DNA of 64,000 nt from NCBI RefSeq assembly GCF_000003815.2, contig NC_049991.1:13122034-13186033 (forward strand), read 5' to 3'. Under the pieces are notes generated by a model, which worked only from the letters and a program-made list of their open reading frames with translations, ran no database searches and was not told where the DNA came from. Source of the DNA: Branchiostoma floridae (taxonomy: Eukaryota; Chordata; Leptocardii; Amphioxiformes; Branchiostomatidae). This document shows positions 7,301-50,361 of this stretch, one piece after another (within the stretch, counting starts at the first letter, position 1; every line of letters begins with the position of its first letter). A program made the translations under genes and the position numbers.

Positions 7301-10118
7301 GTAACAACGAGTTAAACATCAGCATGCTACATTTTGTATGACATTATTCGCTGAGAACCAACATATAACAACAGAAAAAGTGGTTCTAATACATATAACT
7401 AATACACTATACCTGTACTACTCAGGTATAACCACAGGTATGAAGTATACTTTTCTCTGACCTTGTGCAAGTTGAATTCTGTTTCCTTTGCCTCCTGGTC
7501 CTCAATCCTCTTCCTTGCTTGTTCCTCATTGTGCTCCAGTTGCTGGATGGGATATGTGTACTGCTCATTGGCTGCTGCCCTCTGTAACACATGGTTGTAA
7601 TTGGTCATAACTCAGGTCTTGTGATCATTTGAAAACTAACTAGAAAGGCCGACATTTGCTTGAGAGCAAATGCAGCATATTTCAGCCATCTCCCTCCCCA
7701 TGCAACAACAGACTATTCCAAAATCACCCATGTGCAAGAATCGAACACTTTTGTTTAAAAGTCACTTCCACTAATGACACTTAATGACACCCAAAAATGA
7801 ATCTTACAAAATTCCTAGTGCAAGAATGGACTCTTCCAGTGCACCCCATGTGAATTTGCACAATAGACCAGTCCAGAAATACTCTCACTGAAAACATGGT
7901 CAAGGTTGAACTAAGCAAAAAAGGCATGAAAAGGTAAAATAGACCAGTCCAAAAACACTTCCACTAAAAATGGAATATTGAATTATCACCTTTCTAAAAC
8001 TAAATTTGAAAACATCCCCATGCAAGAATGGACTCTTTTTGCGATGCCCCTATGTAAAGTGGTGCAGTCCAAAAATACTAAAATTGGACTTGGACGTAAT
8101 CACCAAAGTCCCAAAAATGGAGTTTAAAAATCCCCCCATGTAAGGATCGACTCTTCCAACACAACATCTTTAAAATTGCAAAGTTGACCAGTCAAAAAAT
8201 AACCACACTGAAACACTTTGACATATCAAATCACCAAAGTCCATAAACAAATTTTTAAAAAATGCCCCCCTCCATGCAAGAATGGACTCTTCCAGTACCC
8301 CATGTAAGATTGCAAAATAGTCCAGTTCAAAAATACTCCCATTGAGAGACATTATATAATCAACAGTCCAAAGATGAATTTAAAAAATATGTACCCCCTC
8401 CGTGCCAGAATGGACTCATCCAGATAACACCGGGCTCACTGATTGGCTGCCAATCCCCTTCGGGATGTTGACTCAGGCTACGTGATTGGTTGCCTCTTTA
8501 ATCAAGTTACTAGTATATATAGACATGTGCACATGCTGTCTTCAGGTGAGAGAGGTCAACGACCTTGAGGTCGTTGACCCTCTGGCCAGTGGAGAATTAC
8601 TAAAAAAGTACCCAAATATATCATTTTGAAGTGGTTTATGCCAGAAATTATACATGGGTCATTTGAATGAATATCTAGTGCACCTATTTACCAAAATGTA
8701 GGTCATTTGGTTACAAGACCAGGGAACAGGAGCCAAAAGCGTACGTTTTTGGTCAAACAATGGCCAGAAAATTCCAAAATTAAGCATTTTGTTGTACCGT
8801 ATGCCAAAGGTGTCAATGAATTCATGTGCGCATATGTAGACGGCACTCCTATACCAAATTTCAGGTCATTTGGTTGTAAAATGGGGGTATAGGAGCCAAA
8901 AAATGTCATTTCTGGGGCAGAAAATGCCAAAAATGCCAAAATTAAGCACTTTGCTGTACCGTATGCCAAAATTGTTTTTAGAATTTTGTGGGCACAGTGT
9001 TCTCACCAGGCCTTTTCAGCATAGCGGGCCGATACGCTGTGGGCTGGAAAAATGACGCTGTAAAAAGCCCGCTACGCTGTATTTTCACCCAGCGTAGCGG
9101 CAAAAAAATGGGGGAAAACTGGAAAAATACCGTAGTAAAAATGCGAAAGCACGTGCCAAGCACGCGCCTCCGCTGTTTCAGGAAGTTTCAGCTCGAAGGG
9201 AGGTGTTTTATAGCACCCCGCGTACCGCTATCTCGCAGCCCCCACCCAGGACCGCCCCTTTGCGCGGCGTGCGTTCTGTACTGTAAACAGAGAACCGGCA
9301 CAAAACTTGTAAAAAGTTTCGGTTCAAGTCCGGTTAAAATCGGAACGGCAAGAAACGCTTCTTGGACTTGCACAAAAATAGCACTTGTATACATTCCCTT
9401 TTATGTTGCAGTATACTTGTAAATCATCTAAAACCTTCCAAAGATCGAGAAATTTGCGTTGAGAAATGACGAAAACATCGTGCGTGCATGCAGGCAGCTA
9501 GCGGTAATGGCGGCGAAAACATCGTAAAATCTCGCAAAAAATTCTCGCGAGATCTGATGCGTCTCTGTGACGTCAGGGGAAGCTAGCGATCTCATTGGTT
9601 TAGGATAAACAACAGCAACGACCGCCATTTTTAGAGCAAATTTTACCGTATTTTACCCCGAAAATTTCTGCCGTTTTGGAGATTTTGCGGGCCCAAAACT
9701 CATATCAAAAGGAAGCAAAGGTATTCTTGTTGTTTTTACGTCCAACACCTCTTATGTGAACGCATTATTCGTCCGCCGATCGCGAACTTGAAAGTCGGCC
9801 GGGGATTCCCCGTGCCGAGCACATGTTTCTGCGTGTTTTGTTCTGTTTACGATGAAAAAAAATACGATGGAAACAGAGACTGTCAAAGTTGTTTATCTAG
9901 AAAAAGTTGGTGGCAAACCGGACAATATTTATGAGTACTGTTGAGCTGAGTAAAGTTTGTTGTTTATGAGTTTTTAGTTGTCTTTGATGCTTTGACTCAA
10001 AGTATCGTTACGTCAAACTGCTACAATTATCGTAGATATGCCCCTAAAAACTGATACAATAAGCCTTCTGAATAGCCTAAAATGCAAGAGCTTCCGGGGG
10101 GCTTCGCCCCCCTGGGGC

Positions 10119-10149
<31 letters not shown>

Positions 10150-13100
10150 CGGGGGCCTTCGGCGGCCCCCGAACCCCTGCCCGACGCTGGGAAAAAATCC
10201 TGGTGAGAACACTGGGGCATATGATCAAGGCACCTCTGTACCAAATTTTAGGTCATTCGGCTGTAACACCAGGGAACAGGGGGGCAAAATGTACATAAAA
10301 ATTGCAAAAAACATGAATAAAATCATTTTAAAGGAAGATATGAAAAAAATGAGAAAAAAGCACATGGGTATTGACCCATTCTACCCTTGTGCCAAATTTC
10401 AAGTAATTCGGTCCAGGAACGACGGAGTTGAATCGATTTGAAGATTTGACAGGAGAAAGAAAGAAACATTACGAATACAATATATTTCACCATACCTATG
10501 GTATGGCTGAAATATAAAAAAATATCCAATACTCATTGTGATTGGTCATTGGTGTTTAGATGATTTCTTTAGGATGGTGACTGTATAGCTATGCCTAAAA
10601 TTTACTATATTCCTGCATTTAAATGCTTAATCTAAAAAGAACGAAAAACATCATCCACTTTTGCAATTTATTGAAGTTATTACAGTTACGAGGGGCGTGC
10701 AATTAGTAATGGTCCTGACCCATTTCCCATAGCAGGAGATTAATGAAACTTGGCACAGTTATTAGTCTTTCTCTTCATAGGAATCATCCAGAGTTATGCA
10801 TTTCTCCCATCGTTTGATGCAGCTCTGGACACCGATTTTGTAGGACACCCCAGGTTGGTCCTCCAACTGATGCCTCATCAATGGCACAAGAGGGACGACC
10901 AGGTCTGGGAGCTGTTTCCACAGACTTCCAGCCACGTTTGAATTCAGGATGCCAGCGTTTTACAAGGTCATATGATGGGGCATCATCACCATAAGTTTCA
11001 TTTATTTCATCAAAAGTCTTCTTTGGTGTGCGTCCTTTCAAATACAAAAACCGGATCACTGCGCGACACTCAACTGGTTCCATTTCACACCTGGTCCATT
11101 TCGCACCTGACTAAGTTCAAACACCAGTAAATCAGAAACCACAATTAGTTCAGAGCTGTCTTTTGCAACATAACCCAAAGAGATATGAATTATTACACAT
11201 ACAAAATTTCATTTAGATCAGACAACTGGAAGTGGGTCAGGACCATTACTTATTGCACGCCCCTCGTAACTGTAAATTCATTTGTTTTTCACAGTAAAAG
11301 GGGAAAAGAGGTCTTGCAGTGTATTAACTTTGTGGCTCAAACAATATTCTGTATTACAGTTGGATTGCACATTGGAAAAGTATATTCACTGCGTAACAAA
11401 TTTGCCGCAGAGAAATCAGTGCAAAAACCATGAAAACGAAACCACTGCAACCGTTTAAAATATCTCTGATCAGCTATATCTTTCTTCAACCACCTGTATG
11501 ATTCTGACTTACGGTGTTCTCATCAATAAGCCTGTAGTCCAGGAACTGCAGGCTTGGTAGGTAGGCGATCACATAGTGCTTGAAGTTGGGATCATCACAG
11601 AACGGGTTCCCATTCAGGTTCAGTGTCTTCAGCTGTTTAAATCTTCTCAGGTAGATCAGCTGGATGACAAAAGTAATAATAATGGTTTTAACTGCATGAA
11701 ATGAAGATAAAAACATCTGGTTTGGATTACAGCAGCATACTATAATCATTGCAACATTGTGAAGCATTGTTTGAAGAGTGAGGTTGGCTAGAAATATTTC
11801 TTTCATTGATACTTGAAATTAGTAACTCCTTCTACCCCATAACATATTTCTTAGTGTATACAAGACATTCAAGCCATCGAGCAACAATGGAAATTACACT
11901 ATCATTATCAAGAGTTACTTTATCAAGAGTAGATACATGTATCTGTATCTGTATCTATATAGCCGGTATAACCGCCCTTCGGCGTAACACACCAGCTTCG
12001 CAGGCACGCGGCGCGGCAGCAGCTGGTTATATTACACTGAACGACTCATCACACCTAACTTTTGCACATCTATATGCAAGTGTTCTCTGAAACTATCCAG
12101 AGAAGACGCCCCTACTGTGCTTGGTGATAACATATTCCACTCTACAATAGTTCTGGGGAAATAGGAATTTTTGAACACATCAATCCTAGGTTGGTAACTC
12201 TGGTACTTGAAAGCATGACTGTTTCTAGTTCGTTTTTGAGCTGGTGTTAGATACTTATCAGTCGGTACGTCCACCAGTTTATTGGTCATTTTGTACATCA
12301 TACAAAGTCTGGACATTTTCCTCCTGTCTTCAAGTGATGTCCACTGCAGATCTGTTTTCATTTTGGTAACACTAGCATCTCTGCTGTAGTTGTTTGTACA
12401 GAATCTGGCAGCTTGGTTCTGTACCCTTTCCAGTTTATCTTTGTCTTTCTTTGTATACGGATCCCATACTGTTGCAGCATATTCAAGATTTGGTCTTACC
12501 AGTGACGTGTATGCAAGTGATTTTACCCTGGCTGGGCATGCCCACATGTATCACAATTGGAATGTAAATGTCTGATGTATCAGTTTCAAACTTTTAGACT
12601 TCAAAGTTTGATGATATAAAATATGTAACTAATCATGTTGAACTTGCATACATTTTCCAGCTGGTCCAGCTCATTGTTGCCCACTGACAGGACATGCAGG
12701 TCCACCAGGGCATCCATGTTCTCTATACTGGAGATCTTGTTGTTGTACAGGGTCAGGTCTCGGATCTTAGTCAGCTTGTCTAGGCCCTCTATCACCTCAA
12801 TGTTGTTGAATGAGAGGTCTGTGTGACATGGCAAAGAATAATCTGTGAGACAATACATTCTTTACCCTTCTCCCTGCAGCCTACGTCTATAACCAACAGA
12901 CACTTTAGTGTGCTTAAAGTAAGGTTTAAGTATTGTTTACATGTGGTACTCAGAGAATTGAGAGAAAGCAAACTATGGCACCAGCGTTGGTTTTCCTGGT
13001 CACTAAAATGTTTAAAAGTATGCTACAAAGACAATTGCTCCAAAATTCACAAACTTTTATCGAGCCTGCTTCACAATAAACTTTTCAATGACATATTTCA

Positions 13101-14894: not shown

Positions 14895-17800
14895 ATGTCG
14901 TTCTTCGGAGGTAACCCGTTCAGCTCCCAAGTTGGGCAGCAGATAGGTACGTCTTACATCACGCCAGTCAAATTTTCTTTCTGTCACGTCGTACCTTATC
15001 ATTCCATCTATCTATGTCGTAAACTTAGCGGGCTAGAAAATCATCAGCTATGATAAATTTGAATGTTATAATTGAACAGTCTGTCTGGCCACCTTGCAGT
15101 GTTGCTGTGCTTCCGCGTTCGAAACATATATATCGTCAGCTATCAACAGACTGCACTGCCTACTTTTGTGACCAATATAATTTGTCCCTGAGTTGAAGCG
15201 TTCAGACTCATGTCGTAATGTGTCTATGGAATCCATCGAATTATATGCTTGTCTGTATTCTATGCGTGTAAGATGTTAAACTGATTTTGACGTAGCTCTG
15301 TCGCAGAATTATATTTTGATGTTGCACTGCGTCGGTTAACTTCCGTATATAAGATTATGTAATGGAAATTTTTAAGTTATTTGTTATCTAGAAAAACTGG
15401 TATCTTTAACGCCTTGTGACACTTAAGAATCTTTAGAAGAAAAATGCTCCGAATCTCCTTACACCTTCACACCATAGGTTCCCTAATGTCTACTTTGTTT
15501 ATGCAGTTCATCATTTGACAGTATAAGAAATTAAGTGCCAAANNNNNNNNNNNNNNNNNNNNNNNNNNNNNNNNNNNNNNNNNNNNNNNNNNNNNNNNNN
15601 NNNNNNNNNNNNNNNNNNNNNNNNNNNNNNNNNNNNNNNNNNTAGAAAAGGGGGGGCAAAGGGGGGAATATCCAACCTGGGAGGAAGTGCATAGGGGGCC
15701 AAGGGTTAATCGGTGCAAGCAACTAAGGGACCCCCTTAGGGATGTGTCTGGGAGGCCTTGCCTTGCAGCATGTCAGGAACACAAGTACCAGCACTGTGTT
15801 TGTGTATGTTTGTGGGTGTGTAAATGTGTGTGTGTGTGTGTGTGTAAGAATGGGCTTGCCAGCAACAGAAATTTGTTTCTTTATTGAATATCTATCTTCT
15901 AGAACAGAAACTATCTCAGCTTGTGCAACAAGAAGGGAGAGCATAAATCACTTGCTCACTGTAAACTAAAGCTAAACTTGTATTGACCAAGGGGGGTACT
16001 GTATAATTACATGTACCTCATTGTTCTCTATGCTAGTATGCCATGTTGACATATACAGTCTTAGTAGTCACATAGCATTTTTGAGGCTGTGGATTGTTAT
16101 CCACTGTACAATTTTTGTGTCCAGGACAGAGCCCAATCCTCTCCTTCCACTGACAATAATCTCTCCAACCCCCTTGTACAAGTTGGAGTGGGGAAAGTAC
16201 TGTTAACAGATTTTGTGACATGTCAAAGGATTTGAACCCAGGACCTCTGTTTTCTAGGTCTAACACCCTAAAGCATTTACCGAACACAGTACTGGTACAG
16301 TACATGAATGTGTTCCTGACAGCTGCAAGGCAAGGAAGGCCTCCCAGACACTTTCCCCAAGGGTCCAGCCAGTGGACACTGGCAGGGTTGAAAATTAGCA
16401 ATTACTATGCCTGTCAATCAGCTATTTTGGCTGAGTGCCACATGATGGGGGTATGAATGGGGGGATCTGAGTAGCCTGACGTGATAGCCAGGCCAGGTAG
16501 ACAGGCCAGGTAGCCTGGCCTGGTAGACAGCCCAGCCTTTTAAGCGAACCCGATCATATGTATCATATGACTATAACAGGTGGTACCAATTTCATCTAGC
16601 TCATGGCCAAATGTGATGTGGCTGATCCTGTCTTGGCCCACCTGCAATATAGTACTATTATGCTAACAGAGAAGCTTAGTGTTGTGATTTAAGAATTCAA
16701 ACTGGATCATTTTGACTTTGGCTTAATCCAGGTCAGGGCTAATGTACCACAACAGTAGTGACCCAGAATAAGTACAAAGGCCATGTTTTGTTATCCAAGC
16801 ACAGCTGCATAAATACTAGAAATCTAGCTCACATGAGTCACAATCAACAACACCTACTAGTACCTTAGCGCCCAATTTGTCTCTATACACCCAAAGCCTT
16901 AGTACCATTGAGGACAGAAAAAAAGACTAGATTCTCAAATTTTGCAGTTTGCTTCAGAATATTTGCAATGTTTGAGGCTCTTAAACTGTCATGTAAGGTA
17001 TTAGGATTTCAAATTGCCAATCAACTAGAAATAATTTCTACTGAATTCTGCAAATTCTCTTAAGGGGTTAGACATTCCATGCAAATTCAGCAAAGTGGAG
17101 AGCTATAATTGTCCTTAATTGACCATAATTGAAGACCTTACTTATTAGCCAGTTAATGCCAATATGGCACTTTTTCATTTATAACAGTCCTGCTGCCAGC
17201 TTAGAATAATGAAATTGAATTAGATAGATTCTGACATTAAAATGCCTTTTGTCTGTTTTCATTCTCCATACTATTCAAGAATGTTTCTCAAGTTTTACCT
17301 AAGAGAAGTAAACAATGGTGTTTATGTCATTTTCTCTTTTTTTTTTTGTAAATTGTATATGCAAAACTTAAATTTAAAAAAATTTAGGAATTCAGGATAT
17401 CACTTGTCTTTTAATATCTTTTGATTTCCTGAAACATCAACCAACATATCAAACAATGTGTGCACTATGTAATTATGGTCATATAGATGAATTACACTGT
17501 CTTACTCTTCAAGCAGAGGTTTGGCTGTGGCTGCTTTTTTTACATACTTTTTGACATTTTTAACAGGCTTTTTATTTTCTACATTATCACTATGTTTCTC
17601 ATCCTGCAAGACACAAGGAAAACGGTACAAAATAGAAAGCCTGATAAAAATGCCAAAAATTAAGTAAAAATATGTCACAAAACAGCCAATGACGAACCTC
17701 TTCTTGGAGAGTGGATTACACTTTCCAGTGGAATGATAAAACAACTCTTGTCTGTTTTCAGAACAAGCCACAGACGCAACCTTGGGCAATGAGAACTGGG

Positions 17801-20800
17801 CCATGATGATGGAAATATGTGACATCATCAACGAAACTGATGAAGGGTGGGTAACAGCATATCAAACAGACATTTTACTTTTTTAGACTGCGATAAAAAA
17901 AAACTTCTTGCATAAACAGATTTGTTCATTTAATGATCAGTATGATGTTTATATGTAAACCCTTACACCCAGCTAAGGTATTAAAGGAAGTGTAATAGTA
18001 CTTGTACTGATATATATAAAATAGAATAGGTCCAGAGGTATACTATGATGAGTATGTTTTAAGATACTAAGCGATATATCAAATCATTTAATGCATATTT
18101 TCACATTCTACTTAACACACTTGTGTAAAGCATGTGCTTCCGACTGACATTGTCTCAAGTATGCTTAAATGCTTACACATGGCTGCACTCATTGATTTTG
18201 TTCAAGTAGATCAAATTTTTTCCTGTTACATGTTGCTGCTTGCATCAGCACTGAGTTACCAAACATCATATATGTGTACCCAGGTAGTTAGGCTGATTGT
18301 GATTTTATACATATATTGGCATTATATTTGTTACTTACTAATATTAATGTTTATTTTGCTAAGATTCAGACCTTATATGTCTTTGCCTCTGATGATATTC
18401 ATTATATTGTTATAAATTTGTTTTTCCTCCTTATAATCTAGCAATTTTATTGTTTTATTATCAAAAGGACACTGATGTAACTAGAAAGGCCGACATTTGC
18501 TTAGGAGCAAATACAGCATATTGCAATCCATCTTCATCCTTGCAAAAATCTCAAAATTCAACAATTTGAAGTAATGTTTGCTCAAAGGGAAAATGAAGTA
18601 CTGTGGGTACGTGTCCTACACACCTTCATGCCGAATTCTAGGTCATTTGGTTTCAATATAAGGGCATAGAAGCCAAAAATATACATTTTTTAGTTAAAAA
18701 TGGCTAAAAATCCCAAAATAACTCATTTTATAAGTGCTCTATGAAGAAAGTGTTGATGGGGTCCTGTTGTCATATGTCCAATTTACCTTTGTACTAAATT
18801 TCAGGTCATTTGGTTTACATACAAGGGCATAGAAGCCAAATATATACATTTTTAGTCAAAAATGACTGAAAACCCCCAAATAACTAATTTTTGAAGTGAT
18901 CTATGAAGAAAGTGTCAATGGGGTTCTGTGAGCATATGTTCAATGCACCTCTGTACCAAATTTCAGGTCATTTGGTTTCTATACAAGGGCACAGGAGCAA
19001 AAAATATACATTTTTAGTCCAAAATGGCCAAAAACCCTAAAATAACTCATACTTGGAGTAAACAATGAATAAAGTATTGATGGGGTTATGTGATCATATG
19101 TCAAACGCACCTATGTACCAAATTTCAGGTCATTTGGTTTTAATACAAGGTCATAGGAGCCAAAAATATACATTTTTAGTCAAAAATGGCCAAAAACCCT
19201 AAAATAAATAATTTTTGAAGTGATCTATGAAGAAGATGTTAATGGTTTTCTGTGCTCATACGTCCAATGCACCTCTGTACCAAATTTCAGGTCATTAGCT
19301 TGTAATACCAGGGCACAGGGGCCTAAAAAAGTAAAATATACATATTTTGTCTAAAAATGACCCAAAAAAAATATCATAAATTCTAAGGCCTCTATCAAGA
19401 AAGTGAAAAAAACGTCTGGGGGTATTTGCTATTTCTACCACCCTGCCAAATTTCAGCTCATTTGGCCCAAAAATGAAAAAATTAATCCCATTTGAAGATT
19501 TGACAGGAGAAGAAGAAGAAGAGACAAAGGAAAAGCAATTAAATATATTGCAATCCCATACTGTAGTATGGATTGCAATATAAGAATATAATGTTGTCAT
19601 TCATGCCAGTGGTCATTGTATCAAACGTTATTGTCTGTGTTGTTTCATTATGATTGAGATGTGAGATGTCATGAATAAACAGAGGGACCATTTTTTAAGA
19701 CCACATGCTGCGCTGTATGCCTAGACTAATTTTCTTCAGAAGGCTGCTGTTTATAGAGATCTAGATGCATGTTTTGAGCTACCAACTGTGCATGCTATAT
19801 TTGGTGACAAAAATTGTCCACTGGTCAGCTAGCATGATCGTTCAAGTCCATAAGTGAATTACTGAACAATCAATGCTTGAATGGATACTTTTAGGACAAA
19901 GATAGGAGAGGCACATTTCTTGTTTGTTTGTTTGAACCTTTATTTATTCATGAGAAACTAAGATTGGTTGCTTTTCATTGAGGTCATGAGGGAGGTATGG
20001 GTCAGCTAAGATATAACACATATAGAGATTACATCAAGTCCGAATAAATCTCTCTATATATTTGTTGTATTGATCTTTAATAGGCATGCAATTATTTTCA
20101 AAAGTACAGCCATATACATGTACTGCTACATTCAGCTTCTAAATTAATCAAAACCATTAAGCTATGGTCAGTGGTATGATATGATATGGCTCAATGTTAA
20201 TCATTCATTTAGACAGATGATTTAAGCAGTGTCACTCAGATTATATTAACCAAATATAAAAGCCTATAACACTTTTCATTTCATACATTTCAGCTGCATG
20301 CCAGAATCATGCCACTTCCCCACAACTTTTTTTTTTCATCTCACTTTGCCAATATTTCTGATGTCGGTAATTTGAAGTGTTTCTTGAAGGCCTCAGGATG
20401 CAGTAAAAGCCATCAAGGGACGGTTTCAGACCAAGGCCCAGAGATATGGCTGCAACCACAAAGTCATCGAGCTCTCCTTATTAGTAAGTTTTTCTCCTCA
20501 GCTTCTGCGCTGCATCAGCTTTTTGTTTCAAATTGTGATTGTATGGTTTTTAGGCCCAAAGACGCCCTAAAGGCCATCAAAAGACGACTGCAGACCAAGG
20601 GCAACCACAAGGTGCTGATGCTAACCCTTACGGTATGTCGTCTTTTCTATTCTATTGTTACAGTATACTACATTCTAAACGGTAAAAGGCAAATCCCAGC
20701 TCTGGGCACAGCATTAGTGCAGCCTTTGCTGCTGCCGAAATATCTGGAAACATTTTGTACCAAAATAGTACATGTACAAACAAAATGTGGGAGTGAATTT

Positions 20801-23800
20801 ATGCATGGCTGCAATATGCTATTTTCTTTCTTTACTTCATTCTGCCATGTCACAAAGTATATATCTTTGCGTTAATGTATTTCTTTTTCTTTAATTGCTG
20901 GATTAGCAACAGATATGTTCCCCATTAAGAATTTGATATATTTTGAAAATGAAGAGCTGGCAGATGGACTCGATATGTGATGGTAAGGCAGATATGTCAT
21001 TTAAGTCAGTACATTTTTGTACATAAAGTGGACTTTGGGAAGAAAAGGGTGTTCACTCATGAAGAACTGTTTTTGACTCTTGACCTTGACCATCAGATCA
21101 GTTCAGTTCATTGTTATTGGAGTGTAGTGCTCTCACAGTTGTTTTAGACTTTCATGACTTTCATAATTTCAAGCCTATACAGAGCCATTCAATAAATAGC
21201 AATGTACAAATTAGGTTTCTTCCACCAAACAGAATTTTTGTCACAATTTCTTAAAGTTAAATTTACTAAACATTGCATGCATATAGAAGAATTCATGTGA
21301 CAAATCCATTTGTACCTACATGGTATGCTCCACGCTCCAGACAATATTATGCATGCTAAATTTATCTCACCATGGCTACTAAATTATACATGCACCAGCT
21401 GTATGCATGTGTGTACATGTAGCTCAAAATGTTGTATACAAATAGCTAAAACATTCAGAATGGCATTAAAAACAGCTGGTATTACTATATTAGTATACAC
21501 AGTGTGGATATATCTTTTGCAATTGTCTAGCTTGATCAAGAGGGATTTTGTTATAACATGCCAGCCTGAATTCTTGCTTCACAAATCCAAACATATGTAT
21601 GATGTCAATGCCATTAGTCTCAGTGGTTCCAGTATTATTACTCTAAGTGGTTTAACTCTGTTCCTTGTCTGGCCTTTACTTGACATCCAGGTTCTTGAAA
21701 CCTGCGTGAAGAACTGCGGACACAGGTTCCACGTGCTGGTGGCCAACAAGGACTTCGTGAACGAGATGGTGAAGATCATCCAGCCCAAGAACAACCCCTC
21801 CACCACGCTTCAGGAGCGCGTCCTCAGCCTGATCCAGACCATGTCCGACGCCTTCAGAAACTACCCAGACCTGCAGGGGGTCGTCCAGGTGCACGAAGAG
21901 CTCAGGTCTAAAGGTAAGGCAGCCATTGCTAGCACTTCTAGTCGTATGTCATACATTGTATTTTTATCTAGTAGTACCTTCAATCTTCTTAGCAATCAAA
22001 TTACAGGCTACCCAAGTAGGACTATCTCCAATTTAGATTTTTTCTCCATTCCTCTCATTGTTTGGGAGCCAAATGTTGTTGATTTTCCTGGTTACGTATG
22101 TCATTTTAAGCTCATGAAAGTTCATTTCAGCTTCATGTCATTTTTGGGACGGATGGGGTAAAATTAGTTTCCGTCCCAACAAGCAAATTTCCGTCTTGGG
22201 ACGGAAGGACAGGTCCTGGAGACAGCCCTGTGCCCAAGACAATAAGATTTACATGTAAATTCATATACACTGTGAAAAAAAGTACAGTCATGTATTATAT
22301 TACTATATGGAATGCATGTGGAAATAAAACCTGTACAAGTGACCATATTTGCATATATAAGGACCACCTGGTCTATGTGACCACATGTTAGTGATCCCTA
22401 AGTTTTTCCCATTGACATAAGCATTTAGTATGCTGTCTCTAGTGACCACCTGACCACATAGACCAGATTTTATCAGTGGCCTCTGATTGATCAGTTGGAC
22501 AGGTTTGACTGTAGCTACTCTTGGACATCACAAAGAATACTGTCATGCATTGACATTCAATTTGTTATGGGATTTATTTAGCAAATTGTGTTTGGAATGT
22601 TATGAATGTTTACATCATTTGGATTACATTTTCTTCAGGAGTGGAGTTTCCCATGACAGACTTGGACAACCTGGCACCAATCCACACACCAGAGAGGGTA
22701 AGACACAGAACAGCATGCCTTATATATTTCTTCTGAACATTCAGCCAGGCTTTTTTGTCCAATCACACCATCTTTATGATTGCTTTTTAATCCTGACACT
22801 GCAACCCTTCTCTCTTGCATCAAGTCACTCTTTCATATGCTTTCAATCTGATTGATTTGATCTGGTTTACTTTCTCTAGAGTGTACCTCCAGAACTGGAC
22901 CCTGCCATAGCTAGGACTAGACCTGTAAGTCTTCCTCTTAAATGTGTCTGGAGTCCTGAAGGTTTGAAGCTAGAATAAATATGTATTAATGGAAGTCTTT
23001 CAGGGGTGCAGGTATCAGATTTTTATTTTCTTAATATGTAGACCAGAAAATTCAGTTTGGGTATGATGGAACAGTTTGAAGGTGGCCTTGTTAGAAATGG
23101 TGGAAGAATGGTGAAGACACAAAATGTCATGTATTCTGCAATTCTTAAGGCTCTTACTTCTTTACTTCTTTTTACTTTATGCCTGCACTTGTGCCTTAAT
23201 GATAATAAGTGCATACTTTATGCTACTTTGTTCCTAATTGTTCTGTAGCAACTACTACTCTTGCTAGCTAGTATACTTGTAGACAAGACATATACAGTAG
23301 ATGATATTCAAGTGGCTGCAGTTTGTTTCTGTTCCTCTAGGTGGCAATCATGTATAGCCAAGATGCAGTGCATGATCAGACTCCATGCAGATAACATATA
23401 CTTATGATGACTATGTGACAAACCTTTTGTTACTACAATATTCTTCAAACAGTGATGGTTTTTGAAAGGCATAAAGACATACCTCCAAATTGTTAATGTT
23501 TTGTAGCACATCTTGTTCACAAATTGACCTAGTCTCACGAGAGAGCACGAGACTAGGTCCAGACTTAGGTAGGCCCCCTGCCATCTTGTGCTGTACAGAT
23601 AGGTATGTCTCTACCATGTCAGAAGAGAAGAAGAAGAACATGTATGCCTTTCAAAAACTGTCACTGTTTGAAGAATATTGTTGTAACTGTATTCATCGTG
23701 ACTGATGAACCTCTTCAACGAGTGACAAACATTGTTTTCCTGCCCCTTATCACCACCAGATGAGTGTATGTCATCTGCATGAATTATGAAGATGACATAC

Positions 23801-26800
23801 ATATGTACACTTATGATGACTATGTGACAACCATGTTTTACTGTACCACCAGGCGAGTGTTACCGCTGCTCCAGCCCAGCGCCCCCCCTCCCAGCCCCAG
23901 CAGCAGCCAGCCCAGCAGCAGCAGCCCCAACAGAACCCACCAGGCTCCCCGGGGGCCATCGGTGCCCTGCAGGGTCCCATCAATCCCACCCCAGAGCAGC
24001 TGGGGAAGCTGCGCAGCGAGCTGGACGTGGTGGAGGGCAACACCAAGGTCATGTCAGAGATGCTGACAGAGATGACCCCAGGGCAGGAGGACCCGGCAGA
24101 TTTGGAGCTTCTTCATGTGAGCAGGATATTCAATTAACATAATGAAATTCATCATTGTTAGCATATAAAGTCAATTGATAGCTGGTGTAAAACCTGCTAC
24201 AGTGTCACTGACGAAAGGTAGCAGATGATAGCTGAAATGTCTGAACGTTTCCAAAATCATATCCAGTTGTAGTGAGTAACTACTGTTTGGCATATCTTAT
24301 TACCTGGATGTCTTATTGACATAACATAGTGAAATGTTTCCTTTTTTTACAATGAAAGTTAGAACATGTTTTAATGATTGTGGTATTGTGATACGATTAT
24401 CAGTGACGTCATTGTTATTCTTCTGACAATGCCCACAAATTGAAACATGCCACTTTCAATGCATTACTTGTATGTGTACATTTGTACTGTATAAAATGTT
24501 AAACCCTATCTGTCCAGGAATTGAACAGGACCTGTCATGCCATGCAGCAGAGAATAGTAGAGCTTATTGACAAGGTGGCCAATGAAGAAGTCACTGGTAA
24601 GTAGGAGACTGTTAGCAACTGGTAGCTGTAAGTACAGTTGAATCTTGTGTCTGGCTTTCTTTATAAAGATCTAGTTTGAGTTTCAATCATAAATTTATGA
24701 AGACTACGCAAAGAAATTCAAAGGTGTTCTTAGTGTATTTTTATGTTTTTACCTCCAGGAGAGTTACTTAGAATCAATGATGACCTGAATAACGTGTTCT
24801 TGCGGTTCGAGCGCTTTGAGCGATATCGCACCGGCAAGACCGGCCAGCCATCCACCACCGCCCCCGCTGTGGCGGCCACTGCAGGGGGTCCAACAGCAGT
24901 GACTGGCGGGGCCCCACCCGTCAACGCTGCACCAATGGGAAGCTTCCCTCCTCCACCAAGTTACAGAGAAGTAAGTACATGGGACAAAGTTGTTCCCAGG
25001 TCAACATACTTTGTTGTGCAATTATAATTTTGCTTTCCATATTACACTGAGGTAGATTATGTATACAGAATTGCCAAAGAGAAAGTTTGAAATTAACTAA
25101 TACTGAGTGACGTACAGGTACTTAAGAAACATACAAAAATGTTACAGTAGAGCTAAGAAGGAAAGGAACTCTTGCACACACATGTAGCATAGCATTTGTA
25201 TTTAAGGTGCCTATCTTTTACATTTTCTGATGGTTGAACTACATCATGTTACCATGTCTTACAGTCCCATAGATAGGCTCAACACAGTGTATACAGTTAA
25301 ATTCTAATGTAGTTTACATCGTACAAGCAATAAGAGCTGTACATGTGTGGCAGCTAATACAGCTCATGTTTTTTTATAATCCTGGTTTAACTTGTACCAA
25401 AAGCAATCACAAACACCCCCTCCGGTGGCAAGCATGACCAGCTTTCCAGCTCCAGCTGCAGCTGCAGCACCTGCTCCACAGGACATGCCCCTCAACATCC
25501 CATTCCCACCTGCACACACTCAGGTAACAGCTGTGCCCCTGTGTGAGGCTTGAGATCCCTGACTGAGACATTTTACATCCTTCCTGCACATCATACTATT
25601 ATACAGTCCCCTGTTCTCCTAGACCCCTTTAATTACTATCATCTATTAACCAACATAAAGATCCAGACAGAAAAATTGACATAACTATCATCTCTCAAAT
25701 CTATGGCTTCACATATTTTCCAACAGCAGAATGTAGCTGTGACAGTGGCAATATTATGATGGCTTGAGAAGTCTGAAAAATACAAATTACTCAAACCAGC
25801 AAACCAAATGTCCTCATTGTCATATGAGACTTTTTGAAGTACATCAGTTATTACTGGATGCCTGAACAATAAACCCTGAAAGCCTATCGTATCAGAGTCA
25901 TGTTTTCTCGGTGTGTAAAAAGGCCTGTCATGACATTGTTTTTCTAAAGACACAAACGGTATCACCATTTCAGTACTAGACTTTCCCTAAGATTATTCAT
26001 TTGGAAATACACATAGAGACACAATCATAAATTCTTCAAAAGGCCAGAATAAAGACCATACAATTTTCTACTCACCCTCTCCATTAACTCTTTTCAACTA
26101 ATAAGTTTGCTGTGTGTTAGCATAACACCAACTAATAAAAAGACCAGGTAGTTGCTTTATACAACTAAATTTGAACTTAGAAAACAAGAGTACTTGCAAC
26201 ATACAACATTTTTGCAAATACATGTATCTAGTAAGTATGAATTGATTAATAAAGTTGTGTAAGTTTGTACATGTACTATAGATATCTGCATGAGTATCAT
26301 ACTAGTAAAGAAGTTTCAGCATCTTGATTAGAAGTTTGTGACTTGTTTCTAACTTCACTTTTCTTTCCAGTGATTCTATATGTAGTTGCTAATCATCAGC
26401 TGATATTTATATATGCAACCTCAACTTTACATGTTACATTCATTCAGCTATACAATATATATTCTTTTTAAAAACAGGTATTGTATGAATAGAGGCCTGT
26501 CCTCTGTCATGACTTCCATTGGTCTTACTTTGCACAGTCACATCCGTACCTAATGTACATGTCACAAGTTGTATACATAAGGTGATCTGTTTATACACAT
26601 GCTTTCTGAAGTGGCATCAAATATGTGAAATTCACACTAAGTCTGGTAGCAGTATCTTTAAAGATGTCTGGATGGTCAGGGTTGCATTGCATTGCATTTT
26701 GTTGCTGAATGTTCACCCCTGCAAGTATATGCATATCACATTAATTCACACCTGCGCTGTGGAGATCAACTAGCAACAAACATACATTCCTGTATCAATC

Positions 26801-29800
26801 ATACTTGTTCATTTTTATATAGGTGCTCTCTTACACTTGCAGCTGTACAGTCATTTAAATGCTACATTGATAATTTTCATCTCTAAACACCTCTCATGTC
26901 CATGCCACATCTATGGCAGTTTTTTCCTTCACGTTAGATGCATCTGTAGTGTGTGATAGCTCTTAGTTAATGCACCTGTCAAGTAGTATCTGCAGCTTAT
27001 TGTAGCCCCTACCCCCACCTGTGTATGTAGCTGTCTGCATGCTGCACTTAGAGCTGCACACTAATAGTGATTGTGTTTCTCACCCCCTGCATGTGATTCT
27101 CTTGGTGAACTCTAAAGGACCCAAATGCCACCCCTCTGATGGGGACCCTAGACAGCCTCAACCCTCCACCCACCTACACTGAGGTAAAGGGAGGTGGTCT
27201 TGTGTGCTCAGAAGTCTAGCATAAGAACTATCAAATATATTTAATGCTGGTGCACCTTTATACATAGGGTTATAACTATACCTGTTGCTTTTAAGAGGCA
27301 AGGTATTTAGGGATATCAAGTCAACAGACAATGGTTTCAAGCTGCAATATCAAAATTACTGCAGTTTGAAACCACTGTACATCGACTTGATATTCCTAGA
27401 TACCCTGGTTTTAAAAGCAATGGATAATAGGTTACACTGCGGATAAAGGTGCACTAGTGTTATGTAATAAACAGTTGCTGGACATAGGCAAAACCAATAG
27501 TCAACTGTATCCTTTCTGAGACTATGCTGTTAGAGGGTGTGGTCTTGTACTTCTGTCTTTTTCTGGTAGAGGGAGCAATCTTCTTTCTGACAGGGACTAT
27601 TTGGTACTGGGCTTTAACTGACTATATTTCCTGGTGAACTTCTGTCCATAGCACTATATTTGTTTACAGTGTGATACTGTGACTTCCTTCTTGAAATTAG
27701 TATTTTTAGCACAATTTGTCTGAAACAGACATCATGTTTAACTCCAACAGGTGTTTTAAAACAGTTATGATATGAATTCTGTTTATTCATGTAACATTTT
27801 TTCTTCAGCATCACTTACACACTGACCACAACTTATTTTTTCTCATGTACACTCTTCTAACCTGATTAACCAGTCTTGTTCTGTGGTATTGGTATAAACT
27901 GAAAATGTTGATTTGCCTCTTCATTTAATAAAGACGTCTTGACATTTGAATTCATAAAAAGTTTCTTGATTTGTTGTTTTGTTGTGTGCTAGTCTCAGAG
28001 TGCAGAGCCCCAGACAGACACCCTTATCGACCTGGGCCCAGCCGTGAGCCCAGGAGGCCCTCCCCCTCTCCAGCCTACAGCAGCCGGACTACAGCAGCAA
28101 CTAGCAGGCCTCAGTAAGTGTGGAGTGCTGACCACAGGGCTGCCTCCAGGACCTGTCCTGGGACGGAAATTTGCTTGTTGGGACCGAAAAGAATTTCACC
28201 CTATCCGTCCAAAAAATTGACATATGATGAAACTTGTTAAAAATGTACAAAAAAAAAAAAACATGCTTAAAATAATATATTTCACCAGGACGATTAACAA
28301 CATGGGCCCTCAAACAATGAGTGGGACAGAAAAAAAATTAAAGCTGGAGACAGTCCTGGGTGACCAGATATGTGGAAACAAATGAAGTTGTAATCTGGCA
28401 TGCTCAGATTATCAAGAGCTTTGTTTAGTATGCAACCATAACAAATGGACATGAACCAGCTTTCAATCTATTGGGTGTTTTTTGTACTAATTAGGTATGT
28501 GTAGTAATACAAATGTATGTGTATAGATTTATCAAGAATTTATCTTTGATACCTTTTCCCTGACCCTTCCCTCTTATTTTATGACATTGGTTCAAACAAA
28601 CAGACCTGTGGATGACCATAGCAATGTACACAGTACATGTTGATCTTAGATTTATCAATGAAAGTTCTTATCAGTGAAAACTGGTGAACAGCTACCAAGT
28701 TGAAATGTATCTGCATAATGTGTATGTGTGAGTATGCATGTGTCTTTGTTGATGTGTGTGTTTGCATGTGTTTTTACTTTGTGAGTTTGCTTCTTGTTCC
28801 CTCCTTCACATTTGGATTCTCCATTTCACACCCAGGTATCACCAGTTCCAGCATCAGCAGCACCCTGAATGCCACGCCCACTGTCACAGCTCAGAACACT
28901 GCAGGGAGGGATGATGATGAGTTTGACATGTTTGCACAGACCAGAGGGAAGTCCATGGAGGAGTCCAGGAGAGGGTTGGTGTTTTCTTCTCTGATTAAGT
29001 AGTAGTAGTAGTAGTAGTGTCCAGTATTTGATATACTGCTGCTGGTATCCCAGACACAGTGGTAGGCAGCAGTTGGCTTGTCTATACACTATATGCTACA
29101 ATGCGGCTCTGTCCATCAGGTTCCATGCAGTATCAGAAACAGAATAATTTTTTTTTGTATTGCTCATCATCCATCCATTTGTTGCTACCCATAGACCTTT
29201 TATATCTTTGTTTTTAATTTTGGCATACAATGATTAAGATCAAATGTACACCCTGGTTAGTCAAATGCATCAAAACCCATCAAAATGCTGCATACCTAGC
29301 CCTTAACACGTATTGTTTTTTTTTTTTTGTTTTTTTTCTATTTTGCTTTTGGACAGACGAGGACAATGTGGCACTGCACTCAAGTTTTAGTAACTTATAT
29401 TAACAGTGCCACATACACGGTACAGACAGAAGGTACCCATTTTTACACCTGGGTGAAGTGAGGAAGGTCGTGTAAAGTGCCTTTCCCTAGGGCACAACGT
29501 CGGGGCGGGGCATGGCGGGGATCGAACTCAGAACCTCTAGGTTCCGAGCCGAACGCTCTACCAGTTACGCCATGCCCGACGCCACAGGGCGACACGTATT
29601 GTTGTTGTTTTTATTTACCACTTAATTTAGGAATGCCTATTTTGACTGTAACAGTAACATGCATTAGGATATACACAGTAAGGGTTGATCTGACTGGTAT
29701 AAGTTGATAGATGATTGGTTGTCTCCCATGTTTCTACAGTGGTAGCACGTATGAAGACATATCCCATTCCGGTGACCTCATGAGCGGAGGCCTAGCCCGA

Positions 29801-32800
29801 GCTGTCAACACCAAATCTAACCCGAACCAACCTGTAAGTGAAACTCTTTCTTTATGTCTTAATTCACTTTCTTTCATCACGCTAGAATGAAATTCTGAAT
29901 GGGTTTCCAGTCCAGGCCATTTTTGGTTTATCAGCTTCTATGTCCACTCATAGTTATTTTACATGATAAAAAGTCTCCACTATTATTAATTGTGTCACAG
30001 TATAGCTGTAAATGTTAGCTTCATATTAACCTTTAAAAACTATACCATACATTGTAGGTGAATTTTTCTCACACTCATAACCCGTCATCAATACAGTTGT
30101 GTTTACAAGGTGTACAAGTAAGAGATATAATGCACTATTGTAGATCATTTTTCTGTAGTTTCACTGGAAAACAAGGTGGAGATAGTGACAAACCTATTGA
30201 CTTACAATAAAGTTCTTGCTAACAATATGACTTCAGCTACAGTTATAAACCATTATGTTCTGTCTTGTCTGCTACCTGACCAACTCAAAGGACGAACCGT
30301 ATGACGAGGTTTGTACATGGTGCTTTATGTAGTCATTGGCTGGGCGGTGTTTTGCCTTCAAAATAAAGGAATTAGCTTTAATCATCATAATGGCTAATGG
30401 AGATACTGAACATGGCAAGGCTATACATACACTGTATGTAGCTGGGTCAAGCAGATTGCCAGCATGGGACCAATGCATGAAATTGGTTATGACAGCTAGC
30501 AAGGCTAGCAGTTATTTAAAGCAAACCGTTGCTCATCATGTCAGGCCAATTGCTTCACAGACTGTTGAACAGGCCACATTGGAAGTAATCGGGGCATATA
30601 TCCAGGGTATTGTTCAATGTTGTATAATGATGATATGTTCCAGCGAGCCCAAGATGCATTGAGAGGTTATGACGAGGTAGAAAGGTGGTTAGCAGACAGT
30701 GACTTGAAGCCATGCCTGAGTGGTGTGCCGCTGAGCGTGTAGTAGACTGCACACATGCTAATGAGCTCTACAGTAGAGCACTGTGGGACAGAAACTTGTC
30801 ATACATTACGGCTGGCATGTGCCTTGATATCTGTGTGTTCACAGTTTGGCAAGGAATATTTTTCTGATGTTTCAATCTCACTTCCAGAAAGGAGGCTGAA
30901 ATTAATTTTTATGATTGGTTGCACAAGACACAATTACTTCAATAATGTCCAATGTCACTGACTAAAGACACCGGATGGTGGTCTGAAACGTCTGACCATT
31001 TCCATAATCATATCAAGTGACTGCTTTTTGGCATAATGTCCAATGTCTTTACCCTTTGTATAGAATATCTCAGTAATGAGTTATTATACTGTGCAAAGGA
31101 TGCTAATTAAAGGTATTTTATTAGGTAGAACTTTAGAAAAGGACATGTTAGAAATTCAACTGTGTGAAGTTCTTGAAATTATGCAAAAAGTAATCTTGAG
31201 TAAAACTTAAACTATCTCTCTGACATTCAACACCAACATCACTGCTCAGGTAACAAGTGTCTTGTACGCCAGCCAGTGACAAGTGTCTGTCCTGTAGTGT
31301 GGCACTTGTAGCAGCATCTTATACTTGACTTGTCTCTGCATGTGTGTGACCCTGTCTGTCCCTTTCAGCATGCTCAGCCCCTAGATGAGGTAGAAAAATG
31401 GCTTGAGCAGAGTGACCTGCCGGTAAGTAGAAGAAGCATGTGCACATGCGTGCGTGTGTAGTTATTCTGTGTCTGCATCATTTGAAGCTCTGTCATGGAT
31501 TGTACATCTTTCAAAATCTGCTGTTACGGCTTATTCTGTTTACTTAGCATAATGGGGTGGATCATATACATGTACAATGTACGTGTAGTACCACAATGTC
31601 ACACCCGATGTCATTTTCTAGTAGATGATGGGCCTTGATGATTCAAAAACAGATTGAAACTCCGTGGCCCATAGTCCCCCAATCAATATAAAGTGGCCTG
31701 CAGGCCAATTTGAGCTTCTCATAAATAAACCAAGGTTCAAACAAAATCGTGAACCAGATATATAAATGAAATGGGAACTGGTGATGCAAACATGGCAACT
31801 ACCATGCACTTTATGTTAGTATAGACAGTTTTTGTTGTAGTCAAATTTTTTGTTGTAGTAAAATGTGTCAGTCTTTTCTTGCTTTCTTGCCCTTCAGAAG
31901 CTGCATGCTGATAACTAGACTTTACTTAACAAAGCATAATTAAAGTCGATAGAATTTGTTCAGTCTTTCTATAATCTCACCTGTGTGTAATGAAATATGT
32001 TACCATATGGTCCAGCTGTTTTTCTTAACATATGAATGTTATAATTGTTTCTTACACAAAAGGAAAGTTTGATACTGTAACAATACATGCATGCCCCCTG
32101 TTGGGTTAATACCGGCCCTTGCAGATAGACACAGTGGGTGAACAGGCTGCTAGCAGGTCATCAGGGCTCACTTTGCCGCAATCTCATGTTCGTCATGGCT
32201 TGGTAACATCTGTTGCATCTTCATTTAATCAATCAATTCTCCAAGAGGGTCTTACATTGGATGCAAATTACCAGTTTTGCAAACCTCATTTCATGCTTAA
32301 TTCCTCCCAAGAAGGTTGAGATTCAGGTCTGAAAAGTGTCAGAAAAATGAAACAAAAATGTTGTAGTACCAATCACACCTTAATTGATTTACTTTCTATC
32401 TGATCAATCTGCATGCGCACAATTATTTTTAATCCCTTTAAAGGAATAGAAAGTTCCATTTCTAACTTCTAAATGAAAATAACAGGACGGGCATTGACAA
32501 GTAGTTTAACTGAAACAAAATGATTGCCTTCATACAGTCGATTGCAGTACTGTTGCCAGTATTTAAAGGGATAGCTTGCAACTCCCTTCTTCAATTCGTA
32601 TTCCCATCACTGAAAAAGCCTTGTTGCTTATCTTATGAAAAAAGAGTCATCAAAAGTAAGTATGATGTAGGATGTTGTTTCTCTTCCACAGCAATCCCCC
32701 GGCGGTGCTGCTCAGCAGGAGGAGGAGGATGTGGAACCTGTCACCAGCGCAGGTGGGTGCTCTCCGGTCAAAAACTGTAGTGATACCTTCCCTACAGTTT

Positions 32801-33370
32801 GTAGACATAGACTAGCCTCCAGTAGGCCTTCTTATTATGGCAGTAAGGGAATAATAGAATTTGGCAAAAAAATTGGAAAATTGACCAGGGGAGACAGTGC
32901 TCTGCTGACCAACTCCTCTGGTAGCAAACTCCCCTGGCGAATTATTTTCCCTACAATAGCCAGCGTATTCAGTCTGGTAGAGACTAGACATAGACCTAAC
33001 TGTTGGAAACTTTGGGGGGGGGGGGGGGTTGATGACGAAAACATGAGAGACCATAGTTCTCTTATGGATTTAATTGTCCAGTATTTAAATCATTGTTGCA
33101 TAAGATTGATATTTCCTTGTATTTATCTTATCGGTGAAATGAAACTTATTTCCTGATACACGCATTCTTTGTTTCTGAACAGAATTTGATCGGTTTTTGG
33201 AAGAGCGAGCAAAGGCAGCCGACACCCTGCCAGACCTGAACAGCCTGCCTGAGGTGCCAGCTCATCCTATCAACCCAACCTCCACGGGCGCCCCAGCACC
33301 TGCCATCCCGCCCAGGAGAGGCAGGCAAATGCAAATGGAGGAGTCTGAGAATACATTATTTGGGTTGTAG
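14895..33370 (+). CDS. TOM1L2: TOM1/TOM1L2-family endosomal adaptor (VHS-GAT protein)
   Basis: Exons 14895-14946, 17762-17846, 20554-20632 (or 20390-20483), 21691-21913, 22639-22697, 22880-22924, 23853-24116, 24518-24596, 24759-24970, 25404-25523, 27118-27183, 27993-28113, 28836-28974, 29740-29833, 31369-31422, 32692-32752, 33183-33370 join in frame: 1941 nt, 646 aa. The N-terminus is [20 protein letters not shown], like human TOM1 (GNPFSTPVGQ). The VHS domain spans about 15-150 ([20 protein letters not shown]), then IHTP; the GAT domain about 220-325 ([25 protein letters not shown]). The tail has two PPxY motifs (PPPSY 360-364, PPPTY 422-426), a clathrin-box-like LIDLG (439-443), [10 protein letters not shown] and the terminal [14 protein letters not shown] module. 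Family knowledge: these adaptors bind ubiquitin, Tollip and clathrin on endosomes and sort cargo. Head-to-head linkage with DRC3 favours TOM1L2 identity; a single pre-duplication TOM1 gene is equally possible. Confidence 0.95.
15543..15642. other. Assembly gap (100 N)
   Basis: Exactly 100 Ns, the usual placeholder for a gap of unknown size, inside TOM1-family intron 1. The right edge is a G-rich run, a likely reason the assembly broke. Confidence 0.99.
15733..16363. repeat. Foldback element with long imperfect inverted repeats
   Basis: The left arm (about 15733-15800, containing GTGTCTGGGAGGCCTTGCCT) is repeated in inverse at about 16290-16363 (GGCAAGGAAGGCCTCCCAGA). Between them are a TG microsatellite and, on -, a pol III B-box-like GGGTTCAAATCC (16228-16239), hinting that part of it is a tRNA-derived SINE. 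The composition is not resolved. Confidence 0.55.
15821..15846. repeat. (TG)n microsatellite
   Basis: About 13 TG/TA-type dinucleotides in TOM1-family intron 1, next to the assembly gap. Confidence 0.8.
18478..19582 (+). mobile_element. Satellite-bearing, Helentron/DINE-like non-autonomous element, copy B (TOM1 intron 2)
   Basis: Same left end as copy A (TAACTAGAAAGGCCGACATT), subterminal motif ATATTGCAATCCAT (18518-18531) and a terminal hairpin whose right arm 19568-19581 is its exact reverse complement. The core is a tandem array of about 162-bp units, marked by GGTCATTTGG-type starts at 18641, 18804, 18966, 19128 and 19290. The right part carries the shared GATTTGACAGGAGA block. It is intact and uninterrupted, so it gives the reference structure for copy A. 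It has no coding capacity. Confidence 0.7.
20390..20483 (+). CDS. Alternative VHS exon 3a of the TOM1-family gene
   Basis: 94 nt, entering in phase 2 and leaving in phase 0 (donor gtaagt). It encodes [20 protein letters not shown] followed by [12 protein letters not shown]. It is clearly homologous to exon 3b ([27 protein letters not shown]) with 5 extra residues between helices. It would give a 651-aa isoform. The two exons lie 70 nt apart and have identical phases, so including both, or neither, breaks the frame. Confidence 0.8.
20554..20632 (+). CDS. Alternative VHS exon 3b of the TOM1-family gene
   Basis: 79 nt, phase 2 in and phase 0 out, with a strong polypyrimidine acceptor (ggtttttag) and donor gtatgt. 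Its length matches the usual TOM1 family spacing between GPKDA and HEVMLALT, so it is treated as the default exon. Confidence 0.9.
22145..22232. repeat. Fragment of the same hAT-like MITE family
   Basis: Holds GGGACGGAAGGACAGGTCCT and ends GGAGACAGCCCTG, the reverse of the left end of the 28135 element. The other end was not found, so it is truncated. TOM1-family intron 4. Confidence 0.6.
23436..23690. repeat. Foldback MITE in TOM1-family intron 6
   Basis: ATTCTTCAAACAGTGATGG then TTTTTGAAAGGCATA on the left is matched in inverse by TATGCCTTTCAAAAA then CTGTCACTGTTTGAAGAAT on the right. The centre is itself palindromic (CCTAGTCTC...GAGACTAGG at about 23528-23556). Confidence 0.65.
24206..24325 (+). 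repeat. Dispersed repeat family R1, copy 1
   Basis: Contains GTCTGAACGTTTCCAAAATC, ATATCCAGTTG and GTAACTACTGTTTGGC. The same string of motifs recurs at about 30953-31045 and, as an inverted pair, at about 47410-47590. It is probably the end of a transposon family; the class is not recognised. Confidence 0.6.
28135..28358. mobile_element. hAT-like MITE with 8-bp target duplication
   Basis: TIRs CAGGGCTGCCTCCAG (28135-28149) and the inverse of CAGGACTGTCTCCAG (ending 28358), flanked by GCTGACCA (28127-28134) and GGTGACCA (28359-28366). CAG-type ends with an 8-bp duplication are the hAT signature. It starts 21 nt downstream of the exon 12 donor. A related fragment in the other orientation lies at about 22145-22232. 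Confidence 0.8.
29318..29591 (-). mobile_element. tRNA-derived SINE with target-site duplication
   Basis: On - the element starts with a tRNA-like head: A-box region TGGCGTAACTGGTAGAGC, then TTCGGCTCGGAACC, and B-box GAGTTCGATCCCC. It continues with a body that includes the AAGTGCC...AGGGCAC motif (+ strand 29476-29493), seen in several animal SINE families, and ends in poly(A) (poly-T at 29318-29337 on +). It is bounded by a perfect 12-bp duplication ACACGTATTGTT at 29306-29317 and 29592-29603. TOM1-family intron 13, antisense to the gene. The intact duplication suggests a recent insertion. Confidence 0.9.
30644..30742 (+). CDS. Possible alternative 3' terminal exon of the TOM1-family gene
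   Basis: After the acceptor ttccag, phase 0 (the phase left by exon 14), the frame reads [20 protein letters not shown], then [12 protein letters not shown] and a TAG. It resembles exon 15 ([18 protein letters not shown]): (R/H)AQ, DEVE(R/K)WL, SDL. No good donor follows the matching part, so use of this exon would end the protein early and drop the [14 protein letters not shown] module. It could also be a decayed duplicate. Confidence 0.45.
   Translation, partial: RAQDALRGYDEVERWLADSDLKPCLSGVPLSV
30953..31045 (+). repeat. Dispersed repeat family R1, copy 2
   Basis: Carries CTAAAGACACCGGATGGTGG, CGTCTGACCATTTCC and CTGCTTTTTGGCATAA, collinear with copy 1 in TOM1-family intron 14. Confidence 0.55.
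33014..33028. repeat. Poly(G)15 run
   Basis: Fifteen consecutive G in TOM1-family intron 16, a possible G-quadruplex or sequencing trouble spot. Confidence 0.85.

Positions 33371-50324: not shown

Positions 50325-50361
<37 letters not shown>

Follow-up and report, generated by a model that had tools for sequence, protein, structure and literature searches.

The window analysed here is a stretch of 64,000 nucleotides (nt) from the lancelet Branchiostoma floridae (NC_049991.1, positions 13,122,034 to 13,186,033), and it harbours a TOM1-family gene (coding span 14895..33370, + strand) that can be modelled as 17 exons with an intact open spliced frame. The predicted product, of 646 amino acids (aa) when the exon referred to below as 3B is used, carries an N-terminal VHS domain followed by a GAT domain, which is the arrangement that identifies the TOM1 family (Pfam profile scores of 151.5 bits for VHS, residues 8-147, and of 76.7 bits for GAT, residues 243-316), and the closest solved structure is that of TARGET OF MYB1 (PDB 1elk, E 2.7e-58). 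Between exon 2 (17762..17846, +) and exon 4 (21691..21913, +) of this gene lie two related exons, 3A (20390..20483, +) and 3B (20554..20632, +), separated by an intron of 70 nt (20484..20553, +). We consider it probable that 3A and 3B represent an old tandem exon duplication that is used as a mutually exclusive pair; the best reading of the exclusion is that it is enforced by the reading frame and perhaps aided by the short intron.

Frame logic of the exon pair

Exon 3A comprises 94 nt (31 codons) and is a diverged copy that includes a 5-residue insert; exon 3B comprises 79 nt (26 codons) and is the TOM1-like copy. Both have GT-AG ends, a length of 1 mod 3, entry in phase 2 and exit in phase 0. 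Because exon 2 is left in phase 2 and exon 4 is entered in phase 0, an intervening exon must be 1 mod 3 in length, and indeed either 3A alone or 3B alone yields an open VHS frame. An early stop is encountered when 3A and 3B are joined, when both are skipped (in these two cases the stop is reached in exon 4) or when the 70-nt intron is retained. Decay of such early-stop mRNAs is to be expected, since many exons lie downstream. A sequence-only reading of the same DNA had described two homologous exons, 70 nt apart and with phase 2 entry and phase 0 exit, in the VHS domain of a TOM1-family gene, of which the inclusion or omission of both would shift the frame; the coordinates, phases and homology are all borne out, the gene and domain are as described (Pfam VHS/GAT and 1elk matches), and every such combination does lead to an early stop.

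The pair can also be compared with what the program WebScipio looks for in homologous mutually exclusive exons (MXEs), i.e. a length within 20 aa by default and a similarity of at least 15% of the self score (PMC3228551). The lengths of 3A and 3B differ by 5 aa, the splice sites are compatible and preserve the same frame (GT-AG, phases 2/0 for both) and the local protein score of 72 amounts to 56% of the self score of 129, a figure that derives from a local alignment whereas WebScipio uses a global one. A 201-aa open frame that spans both exons and the intron between them (20270-20875) was discarded as a chance frame, as it reads 3A outside the homologous frame and does not continue the frame of exon 2.

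Age and maintenance of the two copies

Exons 3A and 3B are identical at 17 of 26 aligned residues and, when aligned freely, at 54 of 79 bases (52 of 78 when the indel is placed by codon). The local DNA score is 162, whereas 2000 dinucleotide shuffles reached at most 107, and the protein score is 72, with 34 as the highest value among 5000 shuffles, so that a chance resemblance is ruled out and the two exons, as judged from their sequences, are true homologues. A convincing third copy was not found in the window, the next matches scoring at most 36 against the shuffle maximum of 34.

The differences between the copies are distributed as 10, 2 and 14 over the first, second and third positions of 26 codons (second versus third position, Fisher P 0.0006). 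By the method of Nei and Gojobori the proportions of synonymous (pS) and replacement (pN) differences are 0.72 and 0.21, with corresponding distances dS of 2.4 (lower bootstrap limit 0.7, with 41.7% of the resamples saturated) and dN of 0.25, i.e. the synonymous sites are close to saturation whereas the replacement sites are not. The ratio pN/pS is 0.30 (bootstrap 0.13-0.58), and of 5000 resamples 0.04% gave a ratio of at least 1. The 15-nt indel preserves the frame, and three comparisons of the flanking introns revealed no residual homology beyond that of shuffles. The near-saturation of the synonymous sites, the low level of replacement change and the unrelated flanks together indicate at the sequence level that the duplication is old and that both copies have mostly been maintained as protein. 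They also bear on the idea that one copy is an artefact of assembly or an allelic duplication. The assembly is imperfect here, with a 100-base N gap inside the gene span (15543-15642), but about one third of the bases differ between 3A and 3B, far above an allelic difference; in view of this divergence and the unrelated flanks we rejected an allelic or assembly copy as extremely improbable.

Neutral decay of 3A since the duplication is ruled out by simulated substitution patterns. When 3B was limited to synonymous change, 3A was left free and the total difference was matched (2347 accepted out of 40000 runs), the probability of at most 9 amino acid changes was 0.018 and that of at most 2 second-position changes 0.0017, and the combination of few amino acid changes, few second-position changes and no stop occurred in none of the 2347 accepted runs. 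An earlier simulation of a neutral 3A (302 accepted runs) gave a probability of 0.013 for at most 9 amino acid changes, and one in which both copies were neutral (1398 accepted runs) gave P 0.004. The absence of a stop constitutes weak evidence by itself, 3A being free of stops in 55% of the accepted neutral runs. The in-frame codon-usage score of 3A exceeds that of every 93-nt window of both long flanking introns; the background was drawn from those same introns and the training set contained 3B, and the score is therefore taken as supporting evidence only. Per codon it is 0.28 for 3A versus 0.78 for 3B.

At the nine differing positions 3B is like TOM1 and/or TOM1L1 in five cases, and 3A is unlike both in seven, its V51 and I67 matching TOM1L1 (comparisons by eye). 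As 3B agrees more often with these proteins, we read 3A as the derived copy.

Predicted consequences for the VHS domain

Residue numbers follow human TOM1, with W30 and K48 (PMC6659632) and the alignment with 1elk as anchors. The segment that is swapped corresponds to residues 47-72, i.e. helix alpha-3, the next loop and the beginning of alpha-4. A full VHS match is kept when 3B is replaced by 3A (138.3 versus 151.5 bits), and the match to 1elk, with which the 3B form aligns nearly end to end, is 199 bits with 3B and 181 bits with 3A; the sequence comparison suggests that the VHS fold is likely kept with 3A and that one surface is altered. The earlier reading had spoken of a 5-residue insert and of many differing surface residues. 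The insert is there, in the alpha3-alpha4 loop, whereas 'many surface' residues is not established, since 9 of the 26 residues differ and some of the changes are conservative: L/V, L/F, L/I and T/S exchange hydrophobic or otherwise similar residues, and K48Q, R56G, G62C, M68E and T72L are the non-conservative ones.

Exon 3B keeps all four basic positions that have been proposed for binding of phosphatidylinositol 5-phosphate (PtdIns5P), i.e. K48, K52, K55 and R56; 3A lacks two of them (Q48, G56) and in addition has a glutamate at the position of M68 and a leucine at that of T72. The counterpart of M68 is M63 in STAM1 and a Q in TOM1L1; M68 is presumably located in alpha-4, so that its change probably affects the ubiquitin-facing helix. 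The residues K48, R52, K55 and K56 of TOM1 have been located in alpha-3, in a paper whose helix labels are not uniform (C77 and C81 are also put on helix 3), and the same paper describes the contact between VHS and ubiquitin as made via alpha-2 and alpha-4, chiefly by W26 and L30 of STAM1, which correspond to W30 and M34 of TOM1 (PMC6659632). The available text of PMC11507603 gives no ubiquitin-contact residues, and a literature search on the ubiquitin contacts of STAM2 found no paper. By the TOM1 alignment W30 and M34 are encoded by exon 2, and thus lie outside the swapped segment. The choice of exon would therefore more likely tune ubiquitin binding than switch it off, and the basic patch on alpha-3 is, from the sequence, at least as likely a target of the swap; the tissue-dependent switch in ubiquitin or cargo binding that had been suggested earlier as a possibility would accordingly, for ubiquitin, more probably be a matter of tuning than an on/off device. 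In this scenario the 3B form would act as the ordinary TOM1 VHS domain and the 3A form, with its fold retained but with K48 replaced by Q, K/R56 by G and M68 by a glutamate, and with a longer alpha3-alpha4 loop, would differ from it in the binding of endosomal phosphoinositide and/or ubiquitin, with W30 and M34 unchanged.

Splice sites, the short intron and the choice between readings

The intron between 3A and 3B is unusual for this gene, the other introns of the model measuring 162-2815 nt (a literature search on lancelet intron lengths found no paper). It contains AGs at +18, +35 and +70, of which those at +18 and +35 are pyrimidine-backed; their use would shift the frame. Scored with a simple matrix, the adenines that most resemble a branch point are those at +17 (3.3), +55 (2.9) and +47 (2.1). 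The first is itself inside an AG and has two AGs downstream, counting its own, and the second leaves just 15 nt to the 3' splice site, which is short by what is generally known of branch-point spacing. For these reasons we favour the adenine at +47, 23 nt from the 3' splice site. Its distance from the upstream 5' splice site is just below the threshold of about 50 nt that has been given for steric exclusion (PMC7969005, PMC5740500), and steric help from the 70-nt intron is plausible. We expect one and only one of the two exons in a productive mRNA, since the other splice products would be cleared by nonsense-mediated decay and perhaps also since the intron may be too tight to accommodate U1 at 3A and U2 at 3B simultaneously. 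The choice might, with less certainty, be set by a regulator that promotes the weak sites of 3A.

Several observations weigh against mutually exclusive use as outlined here. The analysis is based on the genomic sequence of one species, and with 26-31 codons the selection statistics are coarse and compatible with a recent loss of function. Scored over the 16 internal exons with human matrices, the acceptor (2.3 bits) and the donor (4.4 bits) of 3A are each the second lowest. The acceptor of 3B (4.5 bits, the fourth lowest) is outscored by those of exon starts at 20502 (6.2) and 20519 (5.4) within the short intron. A branch point at +55 would be located just above the threshold of about 50 nt, which weakens the steric argument, and RNA structure is not favoured as an exclusion device by the one local fold computed, which is not unusual (z -0.96). 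With respect to function, the PtdIns5P site in alpha-3 is disputed: it was deduced from alanine mutants whose folding is unproven (PMC6659632), and a 2026 review puts the site in alpha-5/alpha-6, at V89, V100, R101 and L104 (PMC13386808), all of which fall outside the swapped segment.

A further point of this kind is the AG at 20396, 7 nt inside 3A, which scores 6.0 for an exon start at 20397 (compared with 2.3 at 20390) and leads to a stop in the third codon (by eye). Exon 3A could on this basis be a poison exon, whose use via that AG or together with 3B (with the stop in exon 4) would introduce an early stop and lower the level of TOM1. A poison exon would nevertheless not need coding constraint, yet we find the pN/pS of 0.30 and an intact homologous frame, and 3A begins with the same AG|GCC as 3B; we therefore hold this role to be quite improbable. 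Weak splice sites are usual in regulated exons and likewise in dying ones, and 3A might thus be a formerly working alternative exon that was recently abandoned in this lineage, with 3B alone in use now. The changes K48Q, R56G, G62C, M68E and T72L would be consistent with early decay, as would the codon-usage score below that of 3B, but 3A contains no stop and no frame-breaking indel, has not lost its GT-AG ends and has a codon usage that still stands above that of the flanking introns, which makes a recent abandonment unlikely. Use of 3A and 3B as a mutually exclusive pair is the explanation that we prefer.

A candidate second duplicated exon near the C-terminus

Each of the 17 exons was scanned against the gene region for extra copies, with the reversed sequence as a control. 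Extra copies that score well above the control were obtained for 3B (72 versus 30) and for exon 15 (31369..31422, +; 18 residues; 50 versus 35); exons 9 (49 versus 40) and 12 (48 versus 41) also exceeded it, but these matches involve Pro/Ala/Gln-rich stretches. The candidate partner of exon 15 (30644..30742, +; local score 50; 27 of 39 bases alike) encodes 32 residues followed by a stop and is in phase with exon 14, with a weak acceptor (-0.7). Its sole in-phase positive donor (3.6) follows 30676, before the shared motif, its strongest donor (6.3, after 30722) does not fit the phase of exon 16, and an ATTAAA is located downstream at 31106. We see the candidate as a possible alternative last exon, with a decayed copy of exon 15 as an equally possible reading.

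The candidate carries an IEXWL-like motif, and a 19-residue stretch in exon 17 of the gene resembles the human myosin-VI-binding motif (by eye). In human TOM1 myosin VI is contacted not by the conserved IEXWL motif but by a motif that follows it (437-463, around F444, F447 and L448; PMC6673701). An isoform that ends in the candidate exon would keep the IEXWL-like motif and lose the putative myosin-VI-binding helix. One could go further and propose that a single TOM1 gene, through exon duplication at both ends, yields the diversity that vertebrates have spread over TOM1, TOM1L1 and TOM1L2, the 3A/3B choice swapping the lipid- and ubiquitin-facing side of VHS and the candidate last exon keeping the W-L motif while dropping the myosin-VI-binding helix. 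We regard this extension as doubtful; if both duplications were used, splicing would set cargo grip and motor attachment separately.

Other features of the window

Within intron 2 of the TOM1-family gene (18620-19480) a unit with aaatttcaggtcatttggttt is repeated several times in tandem, in diverged form (by eye). Head to head with the gene, at about 6410-11818 on the - strand, lie exons of DRC3 (LRRC48, dynein regulatory complex), whose best matches are DRC3 chains (E 9e-13 and 7e-10); we take it that DRC3 also adjoins TOM1L2 in human, which would make this a conserved gene pair. A fragment of a Mos1-type mariner transposase is found at 10784-11107 (-; HTH_48, 41.7 bits). The region 42623-55475 (+) contains an 828-aa Ser/Thr-rich open frame, followed by matches to VWD, to a MUC4-like C8-3 and, below threshold, to EGF, and is perhaps one MUC4-like mucin gene.

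Relation to known systems

We know of no alternative copy of the 3A/3B segment in human TOM1, TOM1L1 or TOM1L2. Searches of the open literature that combined TOM1, TOM1L2, VHS or amphioxus/Branchiostoma with mutually exclusive exons or splicing produced no such pair among the matches listed. In the available text of PMC1779574, PMC8548661 and PMC8869236 none concerns such an exon pair (the last describes exon skipping or intron retention of tom1l2 in fish), and the main text of a study on human MXE clusters, as far as available, contains neither TOM1 nor VHS (PMC5740500). Mutually exclusive homologous exons are thus well known as a kind, whereas the TOM1 pair looks new. If used, 3A and 3B would constitute natural paired VHS variants that differ solely in one segment, from alpha-3 through the loop to the beginning of alpha-4, and would offer a clean tool for the dispute on the PtdIns5P site (alpha-3 versus alpha-5/6) and for the weighting of ubiquitin versus lipid. 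They would also represent a case in which an adaptor of the endosomal sorting complex required for transport 0 (ESCRT-0) is controlled by splicing inside its cargo-binding domain.

The nearest precedent for the arrangement is formed by exons 4a and 4b of vertebrate OGDH, likewise a mutually exclusive pair with a size-restricted intron between, where exclusion is enforced by branch points close to the 5' splice site, at a distance of 25-41 nt in human and of 46 nt in sunfish (PMC7969005). OGDH is nevertheless another gene with another domain, its branch points have been mapped whereas that of 3A/3B is guessed, and the exclusion of 3A and 3B would be enforced by the frame in addition. The exons Ab and 3 of U2AF1 are similar in being a duplicated pair that gives rise to two protein isoforms, in an unrelated gene and with a regulation that is known from experiment (PMC5224494). 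In human MXE clusters the MXE-specific residues are enriched at the surface and at functional sites (PMC7954323), and the 3A/3B swap, which would alter one surface, is in keeping with that trend. Finally, the VHS domain of TOM1 itself (1elk, E 2.7e-58) is the same domain, with the same residues, as the 3B form.
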